Assembly: GCF_032854445.1 (NCBI RefSeq)
Contig: NC_088304.1
Coordinates: 27,909,732 to 27,973,731, forward strand
DNA length: 64,000 nucleotides
Source: Liolophura sinensis
Lineage: Eukaryota > Mollusca > Polyplacophora > Chitonida > Chitonidae
Reading direction: 5' to 3'
Part shown: one piece after another, positions 58,901 through 61,900 of the stretch
How positions within the stretch are numbered: the first letter of the stretch is position 1
Layout: the number at the start of each line of letters is the position of its first letter
Translations under genes and position numbers: made by a program
Notes under the pieces: model-generated
Seen by the model: the letters and a program-made list of their open reading frames with translations, nothing else
The model's database searches: none
Told to the model about the DNA's origin: nothing

Positions 58901-61900
58901 CCCTAGGACAGGTGAGGTTCTCTCAGTCCATGCGACAACAAGTGTGTCCTAATGATGTTAGCAGTAAATTTTGATGTTGTCCATATACATATATCTATAT
59001 ATACACTAATTATTTCAAATGTATGTTCGATGATGCAGATTATGTATAATGTATAACAAATAATACAGTAATGTTTAACGTATAACAAATAATGCAGTAA
59101 TGCATAATGTTTAACAAATAATGCAGTAATGTATAACAATTTCCAGTATATACATTACCTTCACTTCCATCCCTTGGAAGTCTCACCCTGTTTATTCCAG
59201 ACTTGAATTGAACGTGACACTTTTCACGGGGATGAGAGTGACACACAAAATGGTCCATCCTGGCGTAGGGGAAATGTGAACAATCCAACTTGATACGGTC
59301 CACTATCTGATCTTGGGTGGGGAAAGGTTTCATGAGTCCAGCCAGTGTTGTTGTTCTTTGGATTTGTGTTCAGTGTAGACACGCACTGTTAACAGGTTTA
59401 CCGATCACCGATTTACACAAAGATGTTTAAAAAGATCACTACGCAGTGACCGACCGATACAAGGATTTGTTTTATTTTTTCAGTTCGTTTGAACCTAATG
59501 GGTAACCAAGGTGTAGTTTGGATTTTGTTTTTTTTTTTTTTGGGGGGGGGAACAAATAAACGAATGCAAACCATTTATGGGGACAGTCCCTTACAGTAAT
59601 GCACTGTTGTGAGGGTTGGTTTTGTTTTGCCCAATAAACATATTTTTAACAATGGCCCTACATGTAGTATAGCAAAATATTAAAATATCAATATTACATA
59701 ATATTAAAACTTGAAAAAAATATTAATCATGTGAAATATCACTTTTATCTCATACTTGATTTCTCTTCAAAATAATAATCAAAAGATCCCTTTACATATT
59801 GTTGGAGTGAGTGATAAAACTTTTTGATACATGTATGTACTGTTGACTGCTTTCATATTTCACAAGATACATTTAGTGTTACATATACTTTCAGCATTCG
59901 GGTCACACATTCAAACCCCTAGACAGTGTCTATGATGAACACGTGAAGAAGATCGATGAAGAACTCAATCAGCTTAAGAGACGGCACATAGAACTCATCA
60001 GCTTAGTACAAGATGTTGTGAGTTTGTACTAGAAGTGTACTTCAGCTGCTAACTGTTCAAATATTCTGTGTACATTGTCATTGTTTAGCAAGTTTGTACA
60101 ATGTACCTACATGCAGCTATATCATACCCTGGACGTCAGCACCCAATAACTTTGAAAGTCTTAAGATAAATGTTAGGGGTGGTATCCTGAAATGTACTGC
60201 ATGCATATGCTCGGGTTTTGCGTACATGTAAAGCACAATAACACCAGAGAGATGTTCTATTGTTGATGCTCTGCATGTGTGTTGACTCACCTGACAAGAC
60301 ATATTGGTGACCAACATTGGGTGTAAAACCATCAACGTTGAATAAGTGAAATAAACACAACCAGTTATGTGACACAAGTTCATTGTAAAATACCAGTGAG
60401 ATAAAAAAGTTAAAATATACTGTATTTTAGGATGTTTTATACATGAAGCTATGCTTTTCTTTCAGGAGCGTAATGTGGAGAGTGTTAAAAATGCCAAAGA
60501 TGAGCGTGTACGAGAGATTCGAAATGCAGTGGAGTTGATGATAGCCCGCCTGGACACACAGCTCAAGAGCAAGATACTCACACTTATGGGTATGTAGGGG
60601 ATCGAATGCTTTGTGACTGAAGAAAATTAAACAAATGCTATCTTCATGTATAAATCACAAAATTCTTGAGTAAAGTATTAACACAAATCAAATAAATAGC
60701 CATTGTATGAGTGAAAAATTCTTGAGTGTGACATCAAGTGACCGTAAATCATAATAAATAAATTTCTTTGGCAAGACTGTTGAGTGAAGAATGGCTGTTT
60801 TCCTGCAGCTCAGAGAGGTCAGCAGACTCAGGAAACTCAGCTGCTAGAGTCGTTGATTCAGGAGGTCCAACATCAGATTTCCATCTGTGGCAAGAGCGAA
60901 CTCATCAAGAAAAGCTCAGAACTGCTACAGATGTTCCATCAGGTGCATCGCAAACCCATGGCCTCCTTTGTCACAGCACCTGTGCCAGCAGACTTTACCA
61001 GGTGAGTTTTAACCCACTGACCCAGTAGTCATAGCATCTGTGTCTGCAGACTTAAGCTGGTGAGTGCTGACTCATGACCTCGTTTGTACCAGCACCTGTG
61101 TCTGCAGACTTAAGCTGGTGAGTGCTGACTCATGACCTCGTTTGTACCAGCGCCTGTGTCTGCAGACTTAAGCTGGTGAGTGCTGACTCATGACCTCGTT
61201 TGTACCAGCATCTGTGTCTGCAGACTTAAGCTGGTGAGTGCTGACTCATGACCTCGTTTGTACCAGCACCTGTGTCTGCAGACTTAAGCTGGTGAGTGCT
61301 GACTCATGACCTCGTTTGTACCAGCATCTGTGTCTGCAGACTTAAGCCGGTGAGTGCTGACTCATGACCTCGTTTGTACCAGCACCTGTGTCTGCAGACT
61401 TAAGCTGGTGAGTGCTGACTCATGACCTCGTTTGTACCAGCACCTGTGTCTGCAGACTTAAGCTGGTGAGTGCTGACTCATGACCTCGTTTGTACCAACG
61501 CCTGTGTCTGCAGACTTAAGCTGGTGAGTGCTGACTCATGACCTCGTTTGTACCAGCACCTGTGTCTGCAGACTTAAGCTGGTGAGTGCTGACTCATGAC
61601 CTCGTTTGTACCAGCACCATTGCCATTGACTGCAGATCCATTAGCTTTCCTTTATAAGTGAAATATTCTTCAGTACAACATAATACATCAATCAAATAAT
61701 TAAGGAAGTCTTTTGTATGTTTTTTCAGTGAGATAGTACCCCAGTATGACTCCAGCACTTTTGTTATGAACAACTTCAGCTTGTTACAACAGAGGGCAGA
61801 TCCTGTATACAGTCAGCTGCTGAGTGTCTCAGGGCTTAGCTGGAGGCTCAAAGTTTACCCGGTAAGATCTGTAGTTAGGTGGATCCTTTGGTAAAGTTTA

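Follow-up and report, generated by a model that had tools for sequence, protein, structure and literature searches.

Tandem copies of an exon end and its splice donor form a minisatellite in the TRIM37 gene of the chiton Liolophura sinensis

When an intron opens with ten near copies of its own splice donor, are these copies working alternatives, a step in intron evolution, or a by-product of tandem duplication? This question is raised by the TRIM37 gene of Liolophura sinensis, in a stretch of 64,000 nucleotides (assembly GCF_032854445.1, contig NC_088304.1, positions 27,909,732 to 27,973,731 of the forward strand) that we refer to as the window and number from its first base. The species given in the assembly paper (PMC11068029) has since been corrected to L. 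sinensis (PMC12441733), according to the available text of these papers. We find that the end of TRIM37 coding exon 8, together with its donor, is repeated downstream as an in-register array of 58-bp units, and we consider this array most likely a tolerated side effect of the abundance of short tandem repeats in this genome.

The anatomy of the array leaves the exon end as its first unit. Tandem Repeats Finder (TRF) reports a 58-bp period at 60957-61618, with 11.4 copies and 93% matches. Unit zero comprises the last 45 bases of exon 8 (60957-61001) plus 13 bases from the start of the 727-base intron 8, and is followed by ten full units and a partial unit of 24 bases. Every one of units 1 to 10 carries a GTGAGT donor, placed at 61002 + 58k (61060 to 61582). 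Unit zero shares 45 of its 58 bases with the array consensus, against a maximum of 32 in 20,000 dinucleotide shuffles, and its exon part alone agrees at 36 of 45, against a shuffle maximum of 28 and a maximum of 31 among 1,468 control exon windows of 45 bases. Units 2 to 10 match the consensus at 56 to 58 of 58 bases; unit 1 matches at 46 of 58, its first half being diverged and its second half intact. A 25-mer from the unit occurs nine times in the whole genome (609,464,459 bases), each time within this array, and the unit is therefore local and not a mobile element. The 58-bp segment has AACC at both ends, and within 60900-61650 the longer AACCCA is found at 60953 and 61011 only, which may weakly point to micro-homology. 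A candidate degenerate unit at the 3' edge of the array is unsupported, as 222 of 2,000 shuffles reach its score. An earlier note, made from the letters of the window, had named the gene as TRIM37, taken the exon end as unit zero in a 58-base register, and counted ten decoy donors beginning exactly one unit past the GT at 61002. These proposals hold, the gene being identified by a unique 22-exon solution, and the near-identity of units 2 to 10 fits the homogenisation that the note had suggested.

Comparison with other animals indicates which copy is the original. The peptide encoded at the end of exon 8 recurs exactly or nearly so elsewhere, for example in a crinoid protein (P0001) and in the fragments P0015, P0018 and P0022. 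Among 193 fetched proteins, 123 fit a loose pattern for this stretch, in 11 variants, and none has the PAP or VSA states found in the units; the pattern permitted both states yet fixed some residues, so that the count is biased. A further unit state, threonine for alanine (MTSF), is present in 48 of the 123 matches, and this position is therefore not diagnostic. Since the exon peptide is kept in other animals and the new states lie in the units, the exon is the conserved copy and the array units are derived. This reverses the note's view that the exon copy had diverged under selection. The units do still read like the exon, as had been noted, although in one frame per unit only, because 58 is not a multiple of three; this reading is a relic and is followed by a stop. 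In a TRIM37 fragment of 113 amino acids (P0011), the start of the exon 9 peptide is present twice, with similar upstream residues, a protein-level observation that may reflect an acceptor-side duplication in another species.

The decoys are strong donors by sequence. Scores come from a matrix of the 21 other donors in TRIM37 and the neighbouring TTD14-like gene, with leave-one-out scoring of authentic donors. Against 10.82 for the authentic exon 8 donor, nine decoys reach 8.62 and one reaches 10.14. Only 6 of the 23 authentic donors lie above 8.62, so that the decoys outscore the remaining 17, and elsewhere in the scanned introns of both genes donor-like sites scoring 8.6 or more number 11 in 25,252 bp, a density of 0.44 per kb. 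In a predicted fold of a 1,053-base stretch, the accessibility of the authentic donor is 0.11 and that of the decoys 0.17-0.33. Structure thus fails to explain use of the authentic donor, which is the less accessible, and the idea that the decoys are weak or hidden sites is ruled out. The decoy context expected from the earlier note, GCTG/GTGAGTGC, is present in nine of the ten units, unit 6 reading GCCG. The AG/GT of the exon 8 end reads TG/GT or CG/GT in all ten decoys. Acceptor-like scores in units 1 to 10 range from 0.93 to 4.71, and those of authentic acceptors from 1.97 to 13.27.

The predicted consequence of decoy use is the same for all ten sites. Extension of exon 8 to any of them yields a product ending ...PVPADFTR, with a stop after residue 282, because an in-frame TGA (61003-61005) is itself part of the authentic GTGAGT. 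Any decoy use would therefore truncate the protein ahead of the MATH domain, as had been anticipated. The expected stop was a TAG about 25 bases into the intron, which this overlapping TGA precedes, and the suggestion that the decoys could back up the real donor fails on the stop that they share. The one line of product evidence, the NCBI protein model, employs the authentic donor.

The exon 8 array has two counterparts nearby. A scan of 66 splice sites (45 in the window and 21 in the rest of TRIM37) returned three clear boundary-spanning repeats: the TRIM37 exon 8 donor, the TRIM37 exon 9 donor and the acceptor of TTD14-like exon 6 (Table 1). At exon 9, whose array goes unmentioned in the note, the authentic donor is again unit zero, the decoy at 61905 is identical to it over 9 bases, and each of the three decoys leads to a stop. 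At TTD14-like exon 6, the two upstream decoy acceptors score nearly as high as the authentic one, and each likewise leads to a stop. Random window positions reach the scan score of exon 8 (22.5) in 8.3% of cases, that of exon 9 (39.5) in 6.0% and that of TTD14-like exon 6 (47.0) in 4.2%. Such positions reach these scores because arrays cover much of the window, and for exon 8 the proper significance test is the shuffle test rather than this comparison. A fourth candidate, the TRIM37 exon 17 donor (L009:7872 onward), is followed directly by short degenerate units of about 17 bp and has a score of 11.5, which is within chance, as 21.8% of random window positions reach 11.0 and 15.3% reach 12.0.

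Two large arrays on the minus strand, at 38025-38773 and 48571-49250, start at intron bases 26 and 20 after TTD14-like exons 10 and 2, respectively. We considered them as hidden repeats of the same boundary-spanning type and rejected them, as similarity extends into neither exon. At exon 10, resemblance to the unit is confined to the first intron bases (the score is attained in 8 of 2,000 shuffles for these bases, and in 101 of 2,000 once the exon is included); at exon 2, there is no resemblance at the boundary (1,681 of 2,000).

The genome as a whole is rich in such arrays. With a TRF filter of period 10 or more and score 90 or more, 20 stretches, each 10 kb long and sampled at round coordinates from eleven contigs (L013-L032), contain 52 arrays covering 11.75% of 200 kb, and the window contains 13 arrays covering 8.7%; the sampled stretches gauge array density alone, and not relations to exons. 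The available repeat table of PMC11068029 gives 0.08% for 'Other (simple repeat, microsatellite, RNA)', compared with the 11.75% measured here, and minisatellites may have been counted among the unclassified repeats of that table. In the two-gene span, three of nine arrays contain a splice site, where 3.31 are expected under free placement (P 0.73) and 1.46 if arrays may include at most 45 exon bases (P 0.17). Five of nine either include a splice site or come within 30 bp of one, where 3.71 are expected under free placement (P 0.28) and 1.94 under the exon constraint (P 0.025). The span was picked because of the exon 8 array, and these P values therefore lean towards enrichment. Because splice sites fall within arrays about as frequently as expected from random placement, no special amplification of donors is needed. 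The simplest account is that tandem duplications arise at random in a genome full of minisatellites and are then filtered by selection on exons.

We therefore regard the exon 8 array, with good confidence, as a minisatellite of the 'mirage' type described in amphioxus: a passive by-product beside which the proximal, stronger donor is probably still used. Tandem duplication of a segment of 45 exon 8 and 13 intron 8 bases, probably through slippage or micro-homology repair, would have come first. The intronic copies, freed from coding constraint, would then have diverged and expanded by slippage or unequal exchange, with homogenisation of the middle copies and escape of the edge copies, namely the exon copy and unit 1 in its first half. 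The spliceosome most likely retains the authentic donor because it precedes and outscores every decoy; decoy use, if any, would lead to the stop directly after residue 282 and then probably to mRNA decay. The array itself is presumably without function. Several observations weigh against this interpretation. The decoys outscore most authentic donors of the two genes, and the predicted fold makes the authentic donor the less accessible site; the silence of the decoys is read from an NCBI protein model that is itself predicted, which is weak evidence; and the mild excess of arrays within 30 bp of splice sites, seen under one of the two nulls, may leave room for some attraction to exon edges.

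The strength of the decoys raises the alternative that they are regulatory, diverting some splicing into the stop-bearing extension so that array length tunes the TRIM37 level. Retention of GTGAGT in all ten units at high scores and a single common stop, a typical target of mRNA decay, would suit such a role; however, homogenised units amount to few independent observations, so that the kept donors do not show selection, the two other arrays behave alike at other sites of both genes with random-like placement, and the NCBI model takes the authentic donor. We regard this explanation as unlikely. Quite unlikely, in our judgement, is that tandem amplification favours splice sites, for instance through some feature of exon edges. 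The count of arrays at or near splice sites (P 0.025 under the exon constraint) speaks for such targeting, but free placement gives P 0.28 for that count, arrays that actually contain a site are not in excess (P 0.73 and 0.17), and the choice of span tilts the test to enrichment.

The units could also be intron evolution under way, a stock from which a new exon or intron might arise, as the available text of PMC3087553 proposes for globin genes of amphioxus, and the donor-like and acceptor-like sequences within them would provide the necessary signals. This is very unlikely, as a new intron is absent from the gene model, the proto-splice AG/GT is lost in every decoy, and each extension meets a stop. 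Finally, tandem repeats are prone to copy-number error in assembly, and the high-fidelity (HiFi) coverage was 14x according to the part of PMC11068029 available to us. An array or copy number that is wrong is nevertheless extremely unlikely, since the array spans 0.66 kb, far below the HiFi read length (8.77 Gb in 1.05 million reads, same source), the sequences of its edge units differ, and arrays like it are common in this genome. The exact copy number could differ between alleles.

Near-identical donors beside one real donor make a ready-made test of how the spliceosome chooses sites, since the ten copies differ in distance, strength and exon length. The mirage papers that we found concern lancelets. 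If it is true that such arrays are common in chitons, they would seem to be something that minisatellite-rich genomes generally produce rather than a peculiarity of lancelets, and would offer raw material for splice-site and intron change. A distinctly unlikely possibility is that many chiton splice sites lie at minisatellite edges, that some of them, such as TRIM37 exon 8 with its ten strong decoys, leak, and that the length of the array in an individual governs the amount of full-length TRIM37 produced, as a natural, length-variable dosage dial.

Table 1. Positions in the window of the boundary-spanning arrays, their units and the exons that they join.
Feature	Positions	Strand	Details and basis
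TRIM37 coding exon 8	60809..61001	+	Only gene model yielding P0073; 3'-terminal 45 bases (60957-61001) supply the exon part of unit zero
Authentic donor CAG/GTGAGT (GT at 61002) and intron part of unit zero	61002..61014	+	Gene model, alignment, donor scores
Unit 1, decoy donor 61060 in intact second half	61015..61072	+	46/58 consensus match
Units 2-10, near-identical, decoy donors 61118 to 61582 every 58 bases	61073..61594	+	56 to 58 of 58; donor scores
Partial final unit, 24 bases	61595..61618	+	Register alignment
TRIM37 coding exon 9	61729..61861	+	Gene model; last 12 bases open unit zero of second array
Second array, 43-bp units, authentic donor 61862, decoys 61905, 61948, 61991	61850..61996	+	TRF, splice-site scan, scores
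TTD14-like exon 6	44096..44292	-	Unique gene model reproducing P0192; first 22 bases inside third array
Third array, acceptor repeated in 83-bp units, first exon base of decoy acceptors 44375, 44458	44271..44508	-	TRF, splice-site scan, scores

The gene models behind these positions were obtained by trying GT/GC-AG combinations near the ends of homology, and for each gene a unique solution reproduces the protein exactly. For TRIM37 this protein is P0073 ('E3 ubiquitin-protein ligase TRIM37-like isoform X2 [Liolophura sinensis]'), of 905 amino acids, to which the exon at 63646-63882 matches at 99%; the first 11 of the 22 exons lie wholly or partly in the window and the remainder beyond it. The minus-strand TTD14-like gene has 13 exons and 412 amino acids and reproduces P0192 (TRPL translocation defect protein 14-like, L. 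sinensis), which an exon near 44.2 kb matches at 100% over 97% of the query. The two genes diverge: their start codons, at 52536 (-) and 52889 (+), are about 350 bases apart, and the genes may share a bidirectional promoter. The exon 8-9 peptide has no solved-structure match at E 0.001. Three frame-wise Pfam scans of 49001-63999 returned a B-box alone, under its cut-off, and Pfam returned nothing for four minus-strand peptides. Further along TRIM37, the gene model requires a GC-AG intron after exon 15 (L009:6088, AAT/GCAAGT), and 22 bases near the end of that exon are partly copied 810 bases downstream in the intron. A dispersed repeat that looks like a short interspersed element (SINE) occurs on both strands at several places of the window, for example at 41459-41647 and 62162-62377.

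Minisatellite units that carry donor sites are not without parallel. The human 6-16 minisatellite, going by title, reportedly supplies several donors to one transcript. As in that system, which is known to us by title, the minisatellite units in TRIM37 carry donor sites; unlike in 6-16, again by title, the TRIM37 decoys each lead to a predicted stop in a coding region. As in the available accounts of intron gain by tandem genomic duplication (PMC3443670) and of internal tandem repeats in duplicated human genes (PMC2812944), tandem copies here make extra splice sites near an exon. In contrast to these, the TRIM37 gene model has no new intron, AG/GT is lost from all ten decoys, and the array sits in an intron already used by the gene model. 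Among molluscs, the abalone TSSK1-like gene carries a polymorphic intronic 27-bp minisatellite, for which the part of PMC6905558 that we consulted states no position relative to splice sites, and we found no molluscan case of a splice-site minisatellite among the open-access titles and abstract openings listed. The TRIM37 array is a known kind of structure in a phylum for which we found no report.

That kind of structure is the mirage, a term used in the available portions of PMC3087553 and PMC3902484 for an amphioxus tandem repeat spanning an exon-intron boundary. In the former, mirages are described in the globin genes BflGb6 and BflGb9, with Adh3 cited; their units measure 10 to 160 bp and lie at 5' or 3' boundaries, alleles differ in length, edge copies are excluded from homogenisation, and reverse transcription PCR (RT-PCR) suggests that regular splicing is undisturbed. 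The latter adds a mirage in PGBD5 and cites troponin C. The chiton arrays resemble these descriptions in that the real exon edge is the terminal unit (at the exon 8 and exon 9 donors and the TTD14-like exon 6 acceptor), that splice signals lie within units (many units in amphioxus, all ten as GTGAGT in the exon 8 array), and that, in the exon 8 array, inner units are homogenised (56-58 of 58) and edges are not (46 in unit 1 and 45 in unit zero). They also occur on the donor or the acceptor side, and their unit lengths of 43, 58 and 83 bp compare with the 10-160 bp of amphioxus. Unlike the amphioxus mirages as far as these sources describe them, they are found in a mollusc and, all within 64 kb, involve two consecutive TRIM37 donors as well as an acceptor of the gene next to it.
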